A stretch of DNA of 64,000 bases. Origin: Arcobacter sp. (GTDB taxonomy: Bacteria > Acidobacteriota > Terriglobia > Bryobacterales > Bryobacteraceae). The stretch covers positions 62,001 through 126,000 of the forward strand of contig DYJN01000003.1 in NCBI GenBank assembly GCA_020723085.1, written 5' to 3'. Below the pieces are notes generated by a model, which had not been told where the DNA came from, did no database searches, and was given only the letters and a program-made list of their open reading frames with translations. Shown in pieces: positions 1,054 to 32,408 of the stretch. The translations under genes were made by a program, and so were the position numbers. Position 1 is the first letter of the stretch. Each line of letters starts with the position of its first letter.

Positions 1054-4000
1054 CTACCGCAATTCCTTCAGCCGGAGCCGCGCCTCGAGCAGGTACGGGT
1101 TCAGATCCAGGGCCTTTCGCAGTTCGGCGCGGGCCTGCTCGCGGCGGCCAAGCCCCAAATGCGCCAGCCCGGCAGCCAGATGCGCGTTGGCCTCCCGCAT
1201 CCACGGCGGCCGGCCTTCGCCGAACTTGGCAAAAAACTCGCTCTCGCGGCGGCCTTCGAGCGCCTTCTCCGCCGCGGCGAGGAGGGCCTGGTACAACTGC
1301 CGCACGCGGGCGCTCTGGCCCAGCTTCTCAAGCGAACGCGCTTGGTAGTAGAGCATGGACGCCCCCGCGTCCACGCTGGGGTGCGGCTCTTCATCGGCGC
1401 CGGGCAGCGCGCCGGCGGACTGCTTCCACAGCTTCTCCGCCTCGTCCCTGCGCCCGGCGGCTTCGGCGGCCAAGCCGGCATAGTAGTAGGCCTCCGGCAG
1501 CCGCGAGCCGCGGTAGCCCCGCGTCACTTCCAGGTTCTCGGGAAACTCGACGGCGGCGAGGCAGTCCTTCCAGGCGCCTTCATGGTCCTTCGCCTCCATT
1601 CGCTGATGGCCGCGCAGGAGGTGCGCATCGGTCCAGGCGTCCTGCGCGTTGAAGCGCGCGCCCCCTTCCCAAAGATGGAAATGGCGCTTCTCCATGACGC
1701 TGATGGCCTCGTCGTACCTTCCCGCCAGCGTGAGCAGCGTGACAAACCGGCTCATGGCGTCGTCGCGCTTCTCCGCTGTCGAGCGGTGCTTGTCGAACAG
1801 CGCCAGCCGCTTCTCGACGGGCGTGCGCGAGAACTCATACAGCCTGTCCAGCTCGAACAGGTACAGCGCATCCCCGCTGTTGAGCGAGACTGCTCTTTCC
1901 AGCGCTTCAATGGCGCGCCCGGCGCCGTCCGCCTGCCGCGAATACGCCACGGCGAGATTGCGGTACGCGAGCGCGAAACCGGGGTCGAGCTTCACCACCT
2001 GCTGCCAGAGCCGCACCGCTTCCTCGGGCTGCCGGTCATAGAGGAGCAGACCCAGGTAGCAGGGTGCGCGGGCGTCCTTCGGATCCGCCTGCATGGCGGC
2101 GCCCAGCACATGGATCATTTCGATCTGGAAGGGAAAGACATAGTCATGCGGCTGCGAGGAGGCCAGCCGGTAATGCGCCGCCGCCGTCTCCTTCTGTCCG
2201 AGCCGCTCCATCAGCCATCCGCGCAGGTAGCGCGCCTGCACGTTGGACTGCGGCATGCGGTCCAGAATCCAGTTCGCCTCCAGGTGCATTCCGGCGGTCA
2301 GGCACTCGACCGCCATCTCGAGCCCTTCGGCGGGCTGCTCGCGGAAGATGCGCGCGAGCTCCGCGCCGTCGCGCGAGGCGCGCGGGTCTATGGGATCGAT
2401 GTCGCGGATGCGCCGCCGCGCCTGCGACGCTTCGCCGCCCCGCCCCTGCCGCTCCAGCAGCATGGATTTCAGAAACAGCGCGGGCGTATGAGAAGCGTTG
2501 GTCTCCAGGCTGCGGTCACAGTATGACAGCGCGCCTGGCAGATCGCCGCCGGCCGCGCGGATCTGCGCGATGCGGTAATACGAGGCGGACTTCCAGGCAT
2601 GGCTCCACGCGGCGCGTTGCAGCCAGTCTTCCGCCTCCCGCGCCCTGCCCTGGTATTGCAAAGCGAGTCCCAGATAATACAGCGCATCGGCATCCCTGGG
2701 GCGCGTGTAATTGGCGGTGACGCGCGCCACGGCGCGGCGCAGCAGCCGTTCCGCTTCAGCGAACCTGCCGCGCTTGAGATACAGGATGGCCAGTGCCGTG
2801 TTGTTGCGCGCGTCGCCGGGATCCCGGCGCAGCGCCTCTGCGTAATAAGGTTCCGGCTCCAGCGCCGGATTCTGAAACTGCTCCAGGCGCAGTCCGGTGA
2901 GATACAGCTCTTCCGCCGTGGGCACGTCCTTGGGCTCTCGCGGCGGCGCTGCCGCGGGCGGCAGGGGCAGCTTTTCCGGCGGCGCCGGTTCAGGCTGCCA
3001 GGCGACCAGCTCCCGCCCGCCCATGTCGTACAGGGCGGCTCTCAGCTCCTGAGGCTTCACGCCGGCGGGCAAGGCGGCGGTTTCCTTCAGCGGGTGCGCG
3101 GGATCCAGATCCGCAGTGCGCTCCCAGAGCGGCTGTCCGCTGCGCGTGAGCACGGCGCGAGCCTTGCGGAACCGCTTCGTCACAAAGAAGCCCAGCGCAG
3201 CCTCGCCGCCGCGGATCTCCAGATTGACCGCCGCCTCGCGCGTGGCGTTCTTCACGCCGCCGATCGAGTGGAACGGATACCAGTACTGCGTAATGGCCTT
3301 CACTTCATATGGCTGGAGCCAGGAGTAGTCGGGCTGGTTGTCGCTCCAGGCGCCCACCATCAGCTCCAGATACGGCCCGTCGGTGTCGGACAGGATCCTG
3401 TCCCAAAGCCTGCCGGCAGGACCTGTGCCCCATGTGAAGAACTTCTTGCCGGGAACCTGGTGGTGGTCAGCCACATGCAGCGTGCCCGCCTGGCGGCCAT
3501 GATCGTATCCGGCCAGCCAGTCGTCTGTGTCGTTCCAGGCGAACATCGAGATCGGGCTGGGATGGTTCTTCCACCAGGAGACGTCGGCGCCGCGGGTGAA
3601 GTCGACGCCGCCGTACACGGTGTCGGCGATGGGCCAGCGCGCGAACTCCCGCTTGGCATGCTGCGTGGCGAATTTCGTCGACGGCGGAAAGATCACCTGG
3701 TAGTTCCCGTTCGTGTGAACGGCCACGTTGGCGAAGTACAGCAGTGAGTTCTGCACGGGAGTGGTGTTCAACGCCACGACGTGCGCCTCCAGCACCGAAG
3801 AGCCCGGCCTAAGAGTCAGGGTGACGGCCCAGCGCATCCGGTCACGAAGTTCCAGTTCGCCGACGCTGACGGATTTCGAGCCGTCCTTGTGCTCGTGCGT
3901 GCGGTACAGCACCGGCATGAACGAGGTGGCGCGGTGGTGGTGCGGGATGTTCCATTCGACGCCGCCGGAGATCCACGCTCCCAGCATGCCGATCAGCGCG

Positions 4001-4350
4001 GGCTTGATCACGGACTGCTTATAGAAGAAGTTGTAGCCGTTCGTCTTGTCGACGGCCTCGAAGATTCTTCCGCCGAGTTCCGGCAGCACGCAGACTTTGA
4101 GGTACTCGTTTTCGAGGCAGACCTGGCGGTAAACGACATCGCGCTTCTCGTCCGTCAGGGCGTCCAGCATGGCATACGGATAGACCATCCCCTTTGCGCC
4201 CTGGTACACCCGTCCCGTGTAGAAGATGGGGTTCCTGTCGGGCGGGCCGGTGATGTAGGTCGGAATGGTGACGGCGCCCTCGGTGAGAGTCACCTGTGCG
4301 GGAAGCGCCGGAGCAAGCAGCGCCGCGGCTGCCATCAGACGGGCGATCAT
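1054..4350 (-). CDS. DUF5107 and TPR-repeat secreted protein
   Basis: About 1098 aa from the ATG at 4350, chosen because GAGG lies at a usual distance, a hydrophobic signal peptide follows (MIARLMAAAALLAPALPAQ), and a TATACT hexamer lies about 18 nt upstream. The ORF track extends it wrongly to 4812 across typA. Roughly residues 20-520 form a DUF5107-like beta-rich region (LPELGGRIFEAVDKTNGYNFFY, GGVEWNIPHHH, SDTDGPYLELMVG) resembling galactose-mutarotase-like carbohydrate-binding folds. A proline-rich linker near 560 leads into many tetratricopeptide repeats (NNTALAILYLKRGRFAEAERLL; APCYLGLLLYDRQPEEAVRLW) to the C terminus. The likely role is carbohydrate-related and extracytoplasmic; the substrate is unknown. 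A TIM-barrel sugar-isomerase-like gene follows. Confidence 0.8.
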   Translation of the reverse strand: MIARLMAAAALLAPALPAQVTLTEGAVTIPTYITGPPDRNPIFYTGRVYQGAKGMVYPYAMLDALTDEKRDVVYRQVCLENEYLKVCVLPELGGRIFEAVDKTNGYNFFYKQSVIKPALIGMLGAWISGGVEWNIPHHHRATSFMPVLYRTHEHKDGSKSVSVGELELRDRMRWAVTLTLRPGSSVLEAHVVALNTTPVQNSLLYFANVAVHTNGNYQVIFPPSTKFATQHAKREFARWPIADTVYGGVDFTRGADVSWWKNHPSPISMFAWNDTDDWLAGYDHGRQAGTLHVADHHQVPGKKFFTWGTGPAGRLWDRILSDTDGPYLELMVGAWSDNQPDYSWLQPYEVKAITQYWYPFHSIGGVKNATREAAVNLEIRGGEAALGFFVTKRFRKARAVLTRSGQPLWERTADLDPAHPLKETAALPAGVKPQELRAALYDMGGRELVAWQPEPAPPEKLPLPPAAAPPREPKDVPTAEELYLTGLRLEQFQNPALEPEPYYAEALRRDPGDARNNTALAILYLKRGRFAEAERLLRRAVARVTANYTRPRDADALYYLGLALQYQGRAREAEDWLQRAAWSHAWKSASYYRIAQIRAAGGDLPGALSYCDRSLETNASHTPALFLKSMLLERQGRGGEASQARRRIRDIDPIDPRASRDGAELARIFREQPAEGLEMAVECLTAGMHLEANWILDRMPQSNVQARYLRGWLMERLGQKETAAAHYRLASSQPHDYVFPFQIEMIHVLGAAMQADPKDARAPCYLGLLLYDRQPEEAVRLWQQVVKLDPGFALAYRNLAVAYSRQADGAGRAIEALERAVSLNSGDALYLFELDRLYEFSRTPVEKRLALFDKHRSTAEKRDDAMSRFVTLLTLAGRYDEAISVMEKRHFHLWEGGARFNAQDAWTDAHLLRGHQRMEAKDHEGAWKDCLAAVEFPENLEVTRGYRGSRLPEAYYYAGLAAEAAGRRDEAEKLWKQSAGALPGADEEPHPSVDAGASMLYYQARSLEKLGQSARVRQLYQALLAAAEKALEGRRESEFFAKFGEGRPPWMREANAHLAAGLAHLGLGRREQARAELRKALDLNPYLLEARLRLKELR

Positions 4351-4442
4351 GGCGGAGACCTCGATGGCAGTATATCCCCCGCTGTCCGGGGGCGCGCCGG
4401 GCGCAGATGCGCGGGTGGCCGCTGGGGCCGCGCCGCCGGGCC

Positions 4443-24617: not shown

Positions 24618-25412
24618 ATGGAGCCGCGCCATGTCGACGTGCTGGAGGGGCGGGACGAGTTCCGGCGCCCGCTGCTGGCGTCGCTGGCGTTGCATGCGGC
24701 GGTGTTCGGGCTGACGGCTGCGGCGGCGTTGACGGGCATCGGCAGACGCGCCCCCTGGGGTGATCCCAATTCGCTGGGAGGCGGCGGCGCCTACAGCGTG
24801 AGCCCGGTGCGCAACATTCCGATTGCGGGCCGCAGCGGACCCGTCAACCGGCTGGCCTCCGACACCGAGTCCCGGATCCCCGCGCCGCCGAAGCAGGAGA
24901 CGAAGAAGGCGGCGGAGCCGCCCGAACCGGACGCGATTGCGCTGAAGAGCCGCAAATCCCCGCGCACGGACCGTGCGCAGCGCACGGAAACGGCGCGCCG
25001 CGATGCGAGGGAGTTCACCGGCAATCAGGTGTTCAGCCGCGGCGGACAGGCGGCGGCGAGTCCGATGTATGCGGCCACGCCCGGCGTGGGAGGCGTGGGC
25101 ATCGGCAGCGGCGCGCCCTTCGGCGCGCGCTGCGGCGGCTATGTGACCGTGCTGCGCGACCGCGTGGCCCAACGATGGAGGACGGAGCAGGTCGATCCCC
25201 GCATACGGGCGCTGCCGCCGGCCATTGTCGTGTTCGATCTGTACCGCGACGGCCAGGTCCGCAACGTGCGCCTGGTGCAATCGAGCGGCAATGTGGCGCT
25301 CGATTACTCGGCCCAGCGCGCTATCTTGGATGCAAGCCCGTTTGAGCCGATTCCGCCGGGCTGCGAAGGCAATCCCGCGCGAGTCGAGTTCTGGTTTGAG
25401 CTGAAACGATGA
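24618..25412 (+). CDS. TolA/TonB-like energy-transducing protein
   Basis: 264 aa. One N-terminal membrane helix (RRPLLASLALHAAVFGLTAAAAL), a Pro/Lys/Arg-rich periplasmic linker (about 60-150), and a C-terminal TonB-type domain with VVFDLYRDGQVRNVRLVQSSGN and AQRAILDASPFEPIP. Position between tolR and tolB indicates it fills the TolA role, linking TolQR to TolB/Pal, although the C-terminal domain is of TonB type. Its stop overlaps the tolB start by four bases (ATGA). Confidence 0.88.
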   Translation: MEPRHVDVLEGRDEFRRPLLASLALHAAVFGLTAAAALTGIGRRAPWGDPNSLGGGGAYSVSPVRNIPIAGRSGPVNRLASDTESRIPAPPKQETKKAAEPPEPDAIALKSRKSPRTDRAQRTETARRDAREFTGNQVFSRGGQAAASPMYAATPGVGGVGIGSGAPFGARCGGYVTVLRDRVAQRWRTEQVDPRIRALPPAIVVFDLYRDGQVRNVRLVQSSGNVALDYSAQRAILDASPFEPIPPGCEGNPARVEFWFELKR

Positions 25413-26770
25413 AGCGACACTGGATTCTACTCACTTGTGCCGTCCTGGCCGCGGCCGCGGCGGCCTACACGCAGGTGCAGAGCGATATCGTCATCCGCCT
25501 GACAGGCGGCGCGAGAAAGGTGGTCGCACTGCCGGATTTCGGCGGCGCGGGCGCCTCGGCGCAGTTCGCCGCCGTGTTCAACGCCACAGTGTTTGAAGAC
25601 GTGCAGCGCTCGGGCGTGTTCACGATGGCGCCGAAGAGTTTCTACCCGCTCAACGCTCCGCAGCAGGAACGCGACCTGCGCGCGCCGGTTTCGCCTCAGG
25701 CGCAATGCGGCGGGCTGTGCCTCTCCGACTGGGGCGGCGCGCCGGTCAACGCCGACTACCTGGGCTTTGGATATCTGGCCGAGCAGAGCGGGCGGCTGGT
25801 GGCGTCCGGCAATTTCTTCAACACCAGGATGGAGCAGGCATCCTCGGCGCGCGTGTTCACCAAGCTCTACACCGGCGAGCTGAGCGAAGCAGGCGCGCGG
25901 AAGATCGCCCACGAATACGCCGCCGACATCCTGGCCCAATTCGGAGTGCCGTCCCTGGCGGGTTCGAAGATTTACTTTGTCAGCGACCGGCAGGGCAAAA
26001 GGACGAAAGAAATCTGGGTGATGGACTTTGATGGCGGCAACCAGCGGCGGCTCACGCATTTCAACTCGATCACCACGATGCCCTCGATCTCGCCCGACGG
26101 GCGGCGGCTGGCGTTCACCACTTACGCCAAGGGGCAGCCGCAGATCATGATGTATTCGACCGAGACAGGCCGCTTCATCCCGTTCCGCAACTCCGCCGCG
26201 CCTACCAACGCGCAGGCGTCCTTCACGCCGGACGGACGCCATGTTCTGTACGCCTCGTCGGTCAGCGGGTACATGCAGATTTACATCTCCGACCTGGATG
26301 GAAGCAATCCGAGGCGGCTGACGACGACTCGGGCCATCGAGGCGGAACCGAAGGTGAATCCGAAGACCGGCGCCGAAATCGTCTTCGTCAGCGGGCGGGG
26401 CGGTCTGCAACAGGTATATAGAATGAATATGGACGGCGCGGACGTGGAACGGCTGACCAACGGGGAAGGCGAGGCGAGCAATCCGGCCTGGCATCCCGAG
26501 GGGAGGCATCTCGCGTTCGCCTGGACCCGAGGCTACGCGCCCGGCAACTGGAACCTGTTCCTGATGGATGTGGCCTCGAAGGAGACGGTGCAGCTCACTC
26601 ATGGACAGGGCAGGAACGAAAATCCGGCCTGGGCGCCCGACGGGCGCCATCTGGCATTCTGCTCCAACCGCACCGGTTCCTACCAGATCTTCACCATGCT
26701 GGCTGACGGCACGGGCGTCCGGCAGTTGACGACGGAAGGCAACAACTGGATGCCGGTATGGTCGAAGTGA
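25409..26770 (+). CDS. tolB: Tol-Pal periplasmic beta-propeller protein TolB
   Basis: 453 aa. Signal peptide (MKRHWILLTCAVLAAAAAAYTQ), an N-terminal alpha/beta domain (about 30-180), then a six-bladed propeller with repeats such as KEIWVMDFDGGNQRRLT, MQIYISDLDGSNPRRLT and YQIFTMLADGTGVRQLT. TolB binds Pal and the TolA-type protein in the periplasm. Translationally coupled to the preceding gene. Confidence 0.97.
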   Translation: MKRHWILLTCAVLAAAAAAYTQVQSDIVIRLTGGARKVVALPDFGGAGASAQFAAVFNATVFEDVQRSGVFTMAPKSFYPLNAPQQERDLRAPVSPQAQCGGLCLSDWGGAPVNADYLGFGYLAEQSGRLVASGNFFNTRMEQASSARVFTKLYTGELSEAGARKIAHEYAADILAQFGVPSLAGSKIYFVSDRQGKRTKEIWVMDFDGGNQRRLTHFNSITTMPSISPDGRRLAFTTYAKGQPQIMMYSTETGRFIPFRNSAAPTNAQASFTPDGRHVLYASSVSGYMQIYISDLDGSNPRRLTTTRAIEAEPKVNPKTGAEIVFVSGRGGLQQVYRMNMDGADVERLTNGEGEASNPAWHPEGRHLAFAWTRGYAPGNWNLFLMDVASKETVQLTHGQGRNENPAWAPDGRHLAFCSNRTGSYQIFTMLADGTGVRQLTTEGNNWMPVWSK

Positions 26771-26840
26771 AAATCCGGCTAGAGGGAAGAAGTTCGAAAA
26801 GAAGATCCTAGAGATCCAGCACAGAAAGAAGGGAGGCATT

Positions 26841-27635
26841 TTGCCCATCATGAAGCGCCTATTGAAACCACGGCTCATCGCCATCAGCATCCTGAGCGTG
26901 TTCCTGTTGCTATTCGCCGCAGGCTGCAAGAAGAAGCAGCCCGCGCCTCCTCCACCCCCGCCGCCTCCGCCGCCGAAAGAGCAGCCGAAGCCCGCGGCAG
27001 CGGTCATCCGTTCGTTCACCGCGGAGCCTTCGACGGTCACGCGCGGCCAGAGTTCGACGCTGCGCTGGACCGTGGAGAACGCCAGCGAAGTGGTGATCGA
27101 CCAGGGGATCGGCACGGTCCCGCCGCGCGGGCAGCGGGTGGTCTCGCCCAGCGGCACGACGACCTACCGGATGACGGCACGCAGCGCCGGCGGCGATGCC
27201 GTCGCCGCGGTGACGGTGACGGTGACCGCGCCGCCGCCTCCGCCGCCTCCTCCGGCCAAGCCGAAGCCGAGCCTGTCGGAGCGCATGGCGCGCGAAGTGC
27301 AGGACGTCTTCTTCGACTACGACAAGAGCGAGGTCCGCGAGGATGCGCGCGCCACGCTGCAACGCAACGTCGAGGCGCTGAAGGCGATCCTCAACGATTT
27401 CCCCTCGGCGGCTGTCCTGATCGAGGGCCACTGCGACGAGCGCGGATCGGCTGAGTACAACCTCGGCCTGGGCGACCGCCGCGCCAACTCCGCCAAGGAG
27501 TTTCTCGTGCAGTTGGGCGTGCCGGCGGACCGCCTGAAGACGATCTCTTACGGCAAGGAGCGGCCTTTCTGCACCGAGTCGAACGAGAGCTGCTGGCAGC
27601 AGAACCGCCGCGCGCACTTTGTCGGCGTTCAGTAA
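26841..27635 (+). CDS. pal: Peptidoglycan-associated lipoprotein Pal
   Basis: 264 aa from TTG 26841, close behind GGAGG; ATG 26850 is an alternative start. The lipobox is FAAGC. Two proline runs flank an Ig-like/bacterial beta-sandwich insert (FTAEPSTVTRGQSSTLRW, about 55-125) not found in E. coli Pal. The C-terminal OmpA-like domain has VFFDYDKSEV, IEGHCDERGSAEYNLGLGDRRA and QNRRAHF, the peptidoglycan-binding core. It anchors the outer membrane to the cell wall. The insert and proline linkers may lengthen its reach. Confidence 0.95.
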   Translation: MPIMKRLLKPRLIAISILSVFLLLFAAGCKKKQPAPPPPPPPPPPKEQPKPAAAVIRSFTAEPSTVTRGQSSTLRWTVENASEVVIDQGIGTVPPRGQRVVSPSGTTTYRMTARSAGGDAVAAVTVTVTAPPPPPPPPAKPKPSLSERMAREVQDVFFDYDKSEVREDARATLQRNVEALKAILNDFPSAAVLIEGHCDERGSAEYNLGLGDRRANSAKEFLVQLGVPADRLKTISYGKERPFCTESNESCWQQNRRAHFVGVQ

Positions 27636-27644
27636 TCGCTGGAG

Positions 27645-27676
27645 GGCGGGAGCGGTCCGCGGAGGCCGCTCCCGCC
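27645..27676 (+). other. Perfect 11-bp inverted repeat between pal and cpoB
   Basis: GGCGGGAGCGG and CCGCTCCCGCC flank a 10-nt loop, just after the pal stop. No T-tract follows. It could attenuate transcription or protect the upstream mRNA, adjusting Pal versus CpoB levels. Confidence 0.5.
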
Positions 27677-27702
27677 GCGCCTCCGGCGGGGAGGAAGCAA
27701 GG

Positions 27703-28557
27703 ATGCGGACACTCGCGATCGCTTTTGCCATCGCCCTGGCTTGGCCCGCTTCGGCGCCTGCGCAGCGGCGGGATCAACTGGTGGAGCTTGGGCGGGACCT
27801 CGCGCTGTTGCAGGAAGAGGTCCGGCTCATGAACAAGACGCAGACGGAGCGCCTGACGCAGATGGAAGAGACGCTGAAGGCGATGCAGGAGCAGATCGCC
27901 GCGGCAAACCGTTCGCTCGCCGTGCTGGACAGCGGCTTGAAGAAGCGGCTGGAAGACTCGATGGTGAAGCCGCTGTCGGGCGTGACCGGCAAAGTCGACA
28001 CGCTGAGCCAGGACTTCGGATACGTCCGCGAAACTCTCGTGGAAATCAACACGCGCCTGGCGAAGATGGATCAGAGGGTGGCGGATCTCGAGAACACCAT
28101 CCGGATGATGCAGGCGCCGCCGGCGCCGCCGGCGGCTCCGGCATCCGGTCCGCCTCCGGGCGTGTCGGCCAAGAGCCTGTACGACGATGCTCTCCGCGAC
28201 AAGATGGGCGGCAACTTCGATCTCGCATTGCAGCAGTTCACCAATTATCTCGCCTGGTTCGGCGACACCGAAATGGCCCCCAACGCGCAGTATTACATTG
28301 GCGAGATCCACTACAACCAGAAGCGGTTCCAGGAGGCGGCGGCGGCCTTCGACAGGGTGCTGGAGGCCTATCCGGCCAACTCCAAGACCAACGACGCGCG
28401 GCTGATGAAAGCGCGCTCGCTGGCCGAACTGGGCGACAGGGCGGGAGCCGAGCAGGAGCTGCGCGCGCTGATCAAGGCGGCGCCCAACAGCGCTGCCGCG
28501 CGGCGCGCCCGTGCCGAACTCCAGAAGCTGTCCGGCTCCCGGGGGCGGAGGCGCTGA
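27703..28557 (+). CDS. cpoB: Tol-Pal accessory protein CpoB (YbgF)
   Basis: 284 aa from ATG 27703 with GAGGAAGC upstream; the track start at 27619 crosses the hairpin. Signal peptide (MRTLAIAFAIALAWPASAPAQ), a coiled-coil trimerisation region (about 25-150), a short Pro/Ala linker, and C-terminal TPR repeats (SLYDDALRDKMGGNFDLALQ; QYYIGEIHYNQKRFQEAA). CpoB coordinates outer-membrane constriction with septal peptidoglycan synthesis. Confidence 0.95.
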   Translation: MRTLAIAFAIALAWPASAPAQRRDQLVELGRDLALLQEEVRLMNKTQTERLTQMEETLKAMQEQIAAANRSLAVLDSGLKKRLEDSMVKPLSGVTGKVDTLSQDFGYVRETLVEINTRLAKMDQRVADLENTIRMMQAPPAPPAAPASGPPPGVSAKSLYDDALRDKMGGNFDLALQQFTNYLAWFGDTEMAPNAQYYIGEIHYNQKRFQEAAAAFDRVLEAYPANSKTNDARLMKARSLAELGDRAGAEQELRALIKAAPNSAAARRARAELQKLSGSRGRRR

Positions 28558-29409: not shown

Positions 29410-30960
29410 ATGACCTTACGCGCGCCACTGCCGAAAATCTGCATCGCACTCGGCCTGCCCGATGCATCGCGGCTTCTGGAGCACGCCCGGCGTGAAGCGG
29501 ACAACGGGGAGCGGTTCCTGGAGTTCCGGCTGGATTATCTGCCGCGTCCGGAGGACGGATTGCCGGTGATCCGCAAGTTTCTCGAGCTTCACCCCGGCGC
29601 GACGCTGCTGGCCACGTGCCGCCGCCATCAGAACCATGGACGCTTCAACGGCAGCGTTGAAGAGCAGTTCCGGATTCTGGGAGCGGCGGTGGACGCGGGC
29701 GCGCGAGCCGTGGATGTGGAGATCGAAAGCGCGGAAATGCCGCTGGCGCCGATGCACCTGCTCGAGGGCAAGGCGCATATCATTCTCAGCTACCACAACT
29801 ACGAAGGCACGCCGGCGCTGGATCCTCTGATGAAGCGCATGCTCCGCGTCCCGGCGTCCGCGTACAAGATCGTAACCACGGCGCGCAAGCCCTCCGACAA
29901 CCTCCGCGTGCTGTCGCTGGCGCGGAGCTATCCGAAAACGCCGCTCATCCTGCTGGCGATGACAGAAATGGGGTTCCCCACGCGGGTGCTGTGCACGGTG
30001 TTCGGGGGCGTGTACACCTACGCCGCTCCTTCCCTCACCGAAGGCACGGCTTCCGGGCAGGTGATGGCGCGCGTGCTGCGCAACCTCTACCGCGTGGACC
30101 GTGCGTGGAAGTCACCCCGGCTTTATGGGGTGATCGCGGATCCCGTGCGGCACAGCATTTCGCCGGCGGTGCATAACCGGGCGCTCCAGGCGCGGCGCGT
30201 GGAGGGACTCTACCTCCCATTTCTTGTTTCTCCGCTGCAGCTGAAGGATTTCTTTGTACTGGCCGAGAAGCTCCCGCTGGCGGGCTTCAGCGTCACCATC
30301 CCGCACAAGCACCGCATCATGCGGTATCTGGACTCGAGCGATCCGCTGACGAAGCGGATCGGCGCCGTCAACACCGTCTACCGCAAGGCGGGGCGCTGGC
30401 GGGGCACGAACACGGACGCCGACGGCATCCTGATTCCGCTGCGGAAGCGGATCCGGCTGGCGAAGGCGAGCGTGCTGATCGCAGGCAACGGCGGCACGGC
30501 GCGATCCGCGGCTTTCACCCTGAAGGACGCCGGCGCGAAGCTGGCGATCACGGGGCGCAACATCGACCGCGTCCGCGCGCTGGCCAAGCTGGTGGACGCC
30601 GAGGCTCTGACAATGGAGCAGGCCGAGGCGCGCTTGTTCGACGTGCTGATCCACGCCACTCCCGTCGGCATGTGGCCGCACACGGAGAACTGCCTGTTCC
30701 GCGGCGCAATTCCCGCATCGGTTGTGTTCGATCTTGTGTACACTCCCCAGGAGACGCTGCTGCTGAAGCGGGCGGCGGCCGAAGGGCGCCAGGTAATCTG
30801 CGGGCTGGAGATGTTCCTGGAACAGGCGGCGAGGCAGTTCGAGATCTTCACCGGAGAAACCGCTCCGCGGGCGGCGATGGAACGCGCGGCGTGCGAAGCG
30901 CTGCGGGAGCAGGAGGAGCAGCTCCGCCTGCATGGCGGCAAACACGGGGGGACGCTATGA
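29410..30960 (+). CDS. aroDE: Bifunctional 3-dehydroquinate dehydratase / shikimate dehydrogenase
   Basis: 516 aa. Residues about 1-230 are type I dehydroquinase: catalytic His in ILSYHNYEGTP and Schiff-base Lys in AYKIVTTAR. Residues about 238-500 are shikimate dehydrogenase: HSISPAVHNRAL, VTIPHKHRIM (catalytic Lys), NTDADG, NADP site AGNGGTARSA and GLEMFLEQAARQFE. It catalyses consecutive shikimate-pathway steps in one chain, an arrangement common in plants and some bacterial groups. Good GGAGGA before the ATG. The stop overlaps the next small gene by four bases. Confidence 0.96.
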   Translation: MTLRAPLPKICIALGLPDASRLLEHARREADNGERFLEFRLDYLPRPEDGLPVIRKFLELHPGATLLATCRRHQNHGRFNGSVEEQFRILGAAVDAGARAVDVEIESAEMPLAPMHLLEGKAHIILSYHNYEGTPALDPLMKRMLRVPASAYKIVTTARKPSDNLRVLSLARSYPKTPLILLAMTEMGFPTRVLCTVFGGVYTYAAPSLTEGTASGQVMARVLRNLYRVDRAWKSPRLYGVIADPVRHSISPAVHNRALQARRVEGLYLPFLVSPLQLKDFFVLAEKLPLAGFSVTIPHKHRIMRYLDSSDPLTKRIGAVNTVYRKAGRWRGTNTDADGILIPLRKRIRLAKASVLIAGNGGTARSAAFTLKDAGAKLAITGRNIDRVRALAKLVDAEALTMEQAEARLFDVLIHATPVGMWPHTENCLFRGAIPASVVFDLVYTPQETLLLKRAAAEGRQVICGLEMFLEQAARQFEIFTGETAPRAAMERAACEALREQEEQLRLHGGKHGGTL

Positions 30961-31154
30961 AGACGCCCGTCCGCCTCACCCGGCGCCGCCTGGCAGCGGC
31001 GCTGGCCGCGCCGTTCGCCGCCGCTCCGGCAACAAACGCGCAGCCGCAGCAGGACGGGGCGCGGCGCCCCGGCAGGATCCGGGAAGCCGCGGCGAAGCTG
31101 ATGGCGGCGCGGCCCGGCAAGAACATTTCTCCTGCGTTCCGTTTTATACCGTGA
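30957..31154 (+). CDS. Small Tat-signal protein, unknown
   Basis: 65 aa, starting in the ATGA overlap with aroDE. It begins with a twin-arginine-type leader (RLTRRRLAAALAAPFAAAPA) and ends with a short basic mature part (REAAAKLMAARPGKN, FRFIP). No domain is recognisable. It is followed 6 bp later by the amidase-like gene, so it may be that protein's exported partner, or the decayed N-terminal remnant of a Tat-exported amidase. Confidence 0.5.
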   Translation: MKTPVRLTRRRLAAALAAPFAAAPATNAQPQQDGARRPGRIREAAAKLMAARPGKNISPAFRFIP

Positions 31155-31160
31155 GGGCAT

Positions 31161-32408
31161 ATGGCCCAGGCTTATGCCAGCCTGCTGGAGCTGAACGGCC
31201 TGCTGCGGTCGGGCGCGGTCAAGGCCCGCGACATCGTCCGCGAAGCGGCCAGGCTGCTGGAAGCCGAAGCGGGTCCGGACGGCGCGGTGCGCCGCATCCT
31301 GCTCGACGAAGCGATGGAGGCGGCGCGCGGCGTGGAAAGGGAGTTGAAGCGGGGCAGAACGCGCGGAGTTCTGCAAGGCGCGCCGTTCGGCGTCAGCGAA
31401 CTGCTTCAGACCGCGCGGCGGCCGCCGGCATGGGATCCGCAGACGCCGCCCCGGGAGGCGGAGGACGCCGCCGCTGTCAGCCGTTTGCGGGGCGCGCGGG
31501 CGGCGCCGCTGGCGCTGCTGGCCTCGCCTGCGTTCGGCGGAATTGCGGAAGGCTTCGGCGCCAGGGAAGACGCCTGCGCCCGGGTGGTCTCGCGCGGCCT
31601 TCTGCCCTTCGCTGTCAGCCTGGACTTCAATGGCAACGTGTTGCGGGCCGCGCTCCGGCGCGGCTGCTGGGCCCTCCGGCCCACATTTGGAACCGTGAGC
31701 GGATTCGGATCGGCGCCGTTGTCCTGGACGCTGGGGGCTGTCTCCGTTCTGGCGCGGACGCCGGAAGACTGCGGCCATGTCTTGGCGGCCATGAGCGGCG
31801 GCGACAGCCGCTGTCCCCACTCGCCGGGAAGAACTTTTCGGTTCGTTCCGCAATATGCCAGGCCGGTGCGCGGGCTGCGTGTCGCGGACGCGGGAGCGGA
31901 AGCCGGGCTCCGCGCATGGCTTGAGCGCCAAGGCGCGGTTCTCGCGGCGGCGCAAAAGCCGCAGGCGCTGCCGCTGGAAATTCTCCATGCCGTTACCGCC
32001 GCGGAAGCGGGAGAGGCGCTGGAGCAGGAACTGGCCCGGTGCGGGCAGTGCCAGCACTTCCTGGCTCAGGCGCGCGAACTGGCCGCGTTCGAATACCTGC
32101 GCGCCATGCGCCTGAGGCGCTCCCTGCTGGACTGGTACAACCTGGCGCTTGCCGAGGCTGATGTCCTGGTCTTGCCCGCCGAGCCATGGGCGATGGCGGA
32201 ACCCGAGAAGGGCGAAAACGGCGCCCCGCAGCAGTGGGTTGCCACCGCCCTGCTGGCTGGAGCGCCGATCCTGGTCTGGGGCGGAGGCGGCCCACGCGGC
32301 CTGCCTGCATTCGGCCTGACCGGCAGAGCCGGCGCGGAGAATACGCTCCTGCGGCTGGCGGGCGCCCTGGCACAGGGGCCCTGGCATCGGAAAAATCCTG
32401 AAGACTAG
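31161..32408 (+). CDS. Amidase-signature (GatA-like) homologue lacking the catalytic triad
   Basis: 415 aa. The AS-family backbone is visible: GAPFGVSELL (family GxPxxVKD), LDFNGNVLRAALRRGCWALRPTFG (family TGGSIRxPAxxxGxxGxKPT) and VLARTPEDCGHVLAAMSG. The Lys of VKD is Ser here, the GGSSGG motif reads GAREDACA, and the nucleophilic Ser of TGGS is Asn (FNGN). No amidase chemistry is therefore expected. No export signal is present on this ORF itself, but a Tat-leader peptide gene lies immediately upstream. Last gene of the tol-pal/aroDE unit. Confidence 0.65.
   Translation: MAQAYASLLELNGLLRSGAVKARDIVREAARLLEAEAGPDGAVRRILLDEAMEAARGVERELKRGRTRGVLQGAPFGVSELLQTARRPPAWDPQTPPREAEDAAAVSRLRGARAAPLALLASPAFGGIAEGFGAREDACARVVSRGLLPFAVSLDFNGNVLRAALRRGCWALRPTFGTVSGFGSAPLSWTLGAVSVLARTPEDCGHVLAAMSGGDSRCPHSPGRTFRFVPQYARPVRGLRVADAGAEAGLRAWLERQGAVLAAAQKPQALPLEILHAVTAAEAGEALEQELARCGQCQHFLAQARELAAFEYLRAMRLRRSLLDWYNLALAEADVLVLPAEPWAMAEPEKGENGAPQQWVATALLAGAPILVWGGGGPRGLPAFGLTGRAGAENTLLRLAGALAQGPWHRKNPED

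Follow-up and report, generated by a model that had tools for sequence, protein, structure and literature searches.

Among proteins with the AS fold, Toc64 is an import-docking protein. Tse8, another protein of this fold, has GatCAB as its binding partner and does not display the amidase activity of GatA (PMC12283126). In AtzE/AtzG, which consists of the 1-carboxybiuret hydrolase and a GatC-like subunit (PDB entries 6c62 and 6c6g), AtzG has no catalytic role but is required to keep AtzE soluble (PMC6219798). Another kind of partnership is Tat hitchhiking, established for PaoABC and HybOC, where a small signal-bearing subunit carries partners that lack a signal (PMC4273604). The locus analyzed here pairs an AS-fold protein devoid of the catalytic triad with a Tat-leader microprotein. 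It lies in a window of 64,000 nucleotides (the whole stretch of DNA that was analyzed), which is part of G000:C86 and belongs to a source genome of 4.19 Mb. The features of the locus are listed in Table 1.

Table 1. Features of the pseudo-amidase locus and of the related leader fusions (window positions unless a locus is named).
Feature	Position	Strand	Basis or remark
tolB, pal, cpoB/ybgF-like genes, conserved upstream context	25409..28557	+	Pfam, synteny
DeoC/DERA-like protein with G106, S170 and G199 in place of the three catalytic residues	28603..29349	+	
aroDE (3-dehydroquinase I + shikimate dehydrogenase), well-conserved syntenic anchor	29410..30960	+	Pfam, synteny
65-aa Tat-leader microprotein, probable escort subunit	30957..31154	+	leader LTRRRLA..., C-terminal tail NISPAFRFIP
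AS-fold pseudo-amidase, 415 aa	31161..32408	+	ORF, Pfam, AF2 model, orthologues in 5/5 genus members
V78-S79-E80 in place of V-K-D, catalytic Lys lost	31392..31400	+	S79, E80 invariant in 5 species
Site of excised ~20-aa loop; GGSSGG (cis-Ser) there in intact homologues	31536..31577	+	alignment
D155-F-N-G-N159 in place of ET(S)GS, nucleophile Ser lost	31623..31637	+	DFNGN invariant in 5 species
g70 leader-amidase fusions	L079 2945-4432; L087 ~2888 to 4370		reverse-complement coordinates

The Pfam Amidase profile PF01425 matches the pseudo-amidase at 2.9e-13, exceeding the gathering score. An AF2 model, computed from nine sequences of which eight are distant AS proteins, has a pLDDT of 78.6 and a pTM of 0.87, and Foldseek relates it to AS-fold structures at 2.8e-24 (peptide amidase), with TM-scores of 0.81–0.85 on the query (0.85 for GatA). 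By profile match and fold the protein is a member of the AS superfamily by homology, in agreement with the AS-family frame that the preliminary description had recognized in the full-length ORF. The same description called it a GatA-like amidase homologue, which calls for one refinement: among curated families AtzE comes closer than GatA. Indeed, the best NCBIfam match is AtzE (1.3e-18; 67 bits against a cut-off of 461) and GatA scores 39.5 bits against a cut-off of 481, so that both remain below their equivalog cut-offs, and a sequence search of the PDB returned GatA and 6c62 (the AtzE structure, listed as biuret hydrolase) as top matches. A separate intact GatA-like protein, with 524 bits to PF01425 and a KSS triad, is encoded in the same genome. 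A search for related loci in the genome and viral collections returned no close orthologues; viral contigs and one Dehalococcoidia contig gave distant AS proteins only, which were used for structure alignment.

Catalytic positions were read from an alignment to 32 intact syntenic homologues, which shows the loss of the entire Ser-cisSer-Lys triad of a competent AS amidase: the Lys has become Ser79 (nt 31395–31397), the loop with the cis-Ser is absent, and the nucleophile Ser has become Asn159 (nt 31635–31637, within FNGN). The three changes first read from the window alone (VKD to VSE, GGSSGG gone, FNGN at the nucleophile) are thereby all recovered. Residues 126–134, where the GGSS loop is missing, are among the least confident internal stretches of the AF2 model. 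Moreover, Cys169 is a new residue, invariant in all five species of the genus, and 15 positions with a conservation of at least 95% among active homologues have another residue fixed genus-wide, including K79S, D80E, T156F and S159N. The status of the protein as a pseudoenzyme, descended from a working amidase, is well supported.

VSE, the absent loop and DFNGN are common to all five sequenced species of the genus, the proteins of the other four members being 75, 65, 53 and 54% identical to that of the window, and the five ORFs are intact (408–433 aa) at dS values of about 0.6 to above 1. The preliminary description would have been contradicted by intact orthologues in the same place that mark the decay as recent and confined to this strain; such orthologues do exist in other genera, but the restriction to one strain falls, given the five species concerned and their old divergence. 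Downstream of aroDE in the family, the K/S/S triad is intact in 32 of 42 amidases. The ten degenerate ones are the five of this genus, those of G127 and G047 (S/A/S with the loop kept) and those of G100, G155 and G145 (Asp or Glu, loop lost, nucleophile Ser kept); in the related genomes G164 and G188 no amidase was found in the ~5 kb downstream of aroDE. One syntenic gene is therefore seen as intact, with Lys and cis-Ser lost and the loop kept, with the loop lost and the nucleophile kept, with everything lost, or as absent, and since these states occur among related genomes the route from enzyme to pseudoenzyme is open to study. All degenerate forms fall into one group of the amidase tree, on long branches, and this single clade may be due to long-branch attraction. 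The species tree built from TolB, Pal, CpoB and AroDE, in which CpoB is represented for two genomes by a short fragment of the ORF, leaves the g1/g47 backbone without resolution (bootstrap 40–67). For both reasons, catalytic decay in the g1/g47 clade may have begun once or twice independently.

Codon comparisons show that the pseudo-amidase is under purifying selection. Within the genus its Nei-Gojobori pairwise dN/dS is 0.21–0.36 and its ML codon omega 0.088. By the same ML estimate AroDE has 0.030, the other conserved neighbours have 0.033–0.052, the DeoC-like gene 0.100 and the microprotein 0.289. When omega is held at 1 and kappa at 2, the fit for the pseudo-amidase loses 358 log-likelihood units. 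The identities of amidase vs. AroDE are 76.5 vs. 81.8%, 79.7 vs. 78.0% and 91.6 vs. 96.4% in active lineages, whereas they are 75.0 vs. 92.6%, 51.3 vs. 84.7% and 62.2 vs. 94.5% in degenerate ones. Since the degenerate amidases outpace AroDE and the intact ones evolve at a similar rate, the constraint is relaxed yet real. Over residues 69–80 and 154–162, which hold the former Lys and nucleophile sites, 18 of 21 positions are invariant in the five species, against an average of 7.3 in shifted windows, none of which reaches 18; the choice of these stretches followed the catalytic motifs, and conservation of short blocks inside them goes back to the active ancestor. Together with the re-fixed residues, this is the pattern to be expected of a repurposed pocket, passive decay predicting the reverse. 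With active relatives at the locus, the catalytic residues lost and purifying selection across species, the protein can be classed, on these comparisons, as a retained pseudoenzyme.

The tiny Tat-leader gene previously pointed out before the ORF proved to code for a protein of 65 aa that has a Tat-type leader (TRR); the gene overlaps the aroDE stop (ATGA) and ends 6 nt ahead of the amidase ATG. It lies directly before the amidase at 40 of 42 amidase loci, the other two having a fused Tat leader, and was found at none of 13 aroDE loci without an amidase. Judged by this co-inheritance, the microprotein is a conserved partner of the amidase. The two fusions belong to genus g70 (L079, L087), where there is no separate microprotein and the leader is joined straight to an intact AS amidase. 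In six genomes from several genera (L136–L141) the microprotein and an intact amidase are adjacent but away from aroDE, so that the pair behaves as an independent two-gene unit; a different family of the class has it too. In that family (G331) a longer homologue of the microprotein (L135 3190–3519), extending past the PAFxF motif, lies before an AS amidase with intact motifs. At L082 (2861–4646) an insertion of ~1.8 kb, with a transposase-like ORF recognized by eye, separates aroDE from the microprotein-amidase pair.

Each microprotein homologue has a twin-arginine leader and a C-terminal tail of the (E)PAFxF(K)A or SPAFRFIP type, and between them a part that is predicted, from composition only, to be helical. 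The (S/T)RRx motif and hydrophobic stretch were identified by eye, and RR is invariant in alignments of 26 and 9 members. Profiles of the genus with its sisters and of the active lineages match each other at 2.3e-15, two sister rows being common to both sets, and a profile drawn mostly from active lineages finds by itself the window gene at 9.4e-4. A profile search of the PDB gave a weak Tat-leader match and nothing else. With regard to AtzG-like PF13318/GatC, the curated cut-off is missed (the best member of the microprotein family has an E of 0.0053) and the window microprotein has no PF13318 match; hhalign against AtzG gave an E of 6e-4 with a probability of 28% over the last 28 residues. 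The resemblance of the tail is no more than suggestive of an AtzG/GatC-type subunit to which a leader was added. TatC is present in the genome of the window. From the co-occurrence, the leader fusion, the two-gene unit and TatC we infer that the pseudo-amidase is exported by Tat hitchhiking on the microprotein, as in PaoABC and HybOC, the two proteins probably forming a complex.

Stop-codon readthrough, which could join the Tat leader to the amidase in the window, where both are in frame, was considered and rejected, since the frame relation is not conserved among relatives and the stops vary between TGA, TAG and TAA. An AF2 model of the read-through chain has a pLDDT below 50 over residues 1–72 and gives no confident placement of the microprotein.

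The gene order tolB-pal-cpoB-deoC-aroDE-microprotein-amidase is common to this genus and g47, and largely to other genera, so that the set of DeoC-like, aroDE and amidase-like genes for which a check of synteny had been proposed is conserved to that extent. The preliminary description had also counted the amidase homologue as the second pseudoenzyme flanking aroDE, and the DeoC-like protein bears this out. It matches DERA at 1.2e-17, with 64 bits against the deoC equivalog cut-off of 117.3, and has G106, S170 and G199 at what we take, from the known E. coli DERA positions and the family alignment, to be the sites of the catalytic Asp, the Schiff-base Lys and the second Lys. It is degenerate in all five genus members (GSG or GAG), and Asp/Lys/Lys is kept in 9 of 31 aligned DeoC-like proteins of the family, the gene staying upstream of aroDE (L038–L091). 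In G047 the DeoC triad is intact and the amidase degenerate; in G180 and G172 it is the amidase that is intact and DeoC that is degenerate. The two losses are thus uncoupled across the family, and the two pseudoenzymes need not form one system.

Taking these data together, we lean towards the reading that a two-subunit, AtzE-like and Tat-hitchhiked amidase turned, in this genus, into a non-catalytic exported binding protein. In the ancestral intact form, the twin-arginine partner of ~65 aa would use its mature helix and PAFxF tail to bind the folded amidase in the cytoplasm, so that the amidase crosses the Tat translocase as a hitchhiker. Loss of the catalytic Lys, of the cis-Ser together with the loop and lastly of the nucleophile would have followed in this genus, and the protein, having kept its fold, operon place and partner and having re-fixed its former active site (VSE, DFNGN), would now serve as an exported protein that binds a ligand or another protein, a role that we put forward as a hypothesis. 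Counted against it are the relaxed constraint, the lack of an amidase within ~5 kb after aroDE in G164 and G188, the fused chain in which the microprotein is not confidently placed, and a homology of the microprotein to AtzG that is no more than suggestive. A wider proposal, which we make tentatively and with more doubt than belief, is that the Tat-leader microprotein family acts as an in-trans export escort and GatC/AtzG-type subunit for the amidases of the class, the cargo being here a ligand-binding pseudo-amidase with a re-fixed pocket. If the microprotein is indeed a Tat escort, its size is unusually small for one, and it would suggest a GatC-like helper subunit adapted for export.

The main rival, which we consider rather unlikely, is slow passive decay, in which the activity became dispensable and the protein, without present function, is heading for loss, its ORF persisting only through the cost of misfolded or broken Tat cargo and through translational coupling in the operon. 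The evolution several-fold faster than that of AroDE, limited to the degenerate lineages, the stepwise loss states in sister lineages and the two genomes without an amidase in ~5 kb after aroDE are all in its favour; it sits badly with five ORFs left intact despite the dS reached with an omega of 0.088, and with constraint concentrated at the former active site, where new residues are fixed and decay predicts the opposite. The fixation of DFNGN, VSE and Cys169 in all five species could also be read as changed chemistry, the refashioned site catalyzing a different reaction with non-canonical residues. We judge this improbable, as the entire Ser-cisSer-Lys machinery and the loop are gone and the rate is elevated; an AS enzyme that is active in the absence of its nucleophile Ser is not known to us. 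Gene order and the degeneracy of both flanking proteins would fit a role in the cytosol, where the pseudo-amidase and the DeoC-like pseudoenzyme would together scaffold or regulate AroDE. Export is indicated instead by the partner with its Tat leader and by the leader fusion, so that the pseudo-amidase would probably act in the periplasm, and with the pair lying away from aroDE in other genera and the two decays uncoupled, such a role seems very unlikely. A sequencing error, an assembly artefact or a recent strain pseudogene has a negligible chance of being the explanation; no observation favours it, and it is refuted by the orthologues, the changes being identical in five genomes that are independent of one another and of which two are single-contig.

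The exported binding protein that we favour can finally be set beside the known systems. As in AtzE/AtzG, a small partner is encoded directly upstream, and the C-terminal helix and (E)PAxxF tail of the microprotein resemble the tail of AtzG; on the other hand, the pseudo-amidase has no triad and scores far under the AtzE cut-off, and the microprotein adds a Tat-type leader and misses the AtzG Pfam cut-off. In three loci (L093, L094 and L095) an AtzH-like protein of ~180 aa appears to carry an AtzG domain fused to its C-terminus, and each locus also contains an AtzE-like gene. With GatA of GatCAB the pseudo-amidase shares the AS fold (TM 0.85) and the arrangement of a large and a small subunit, whereas it shows no link to GatB or tRNA and the GatA-like protein of the genome is a separate one. 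PaoABC and HybOC are redox enzymes, whereas here the putative escort is a microprotein of ~65 aa and the cargo an AS-fold protein. Toc64/OM64 and Tse8, AS-fold proteins that are non-catalytic or repurposed, belong to other lineages and contexts, are not Tat hitchhikers and are likened to the pseudo-amidase by their fold, but they offer a precedent for AS folds that act by binding.
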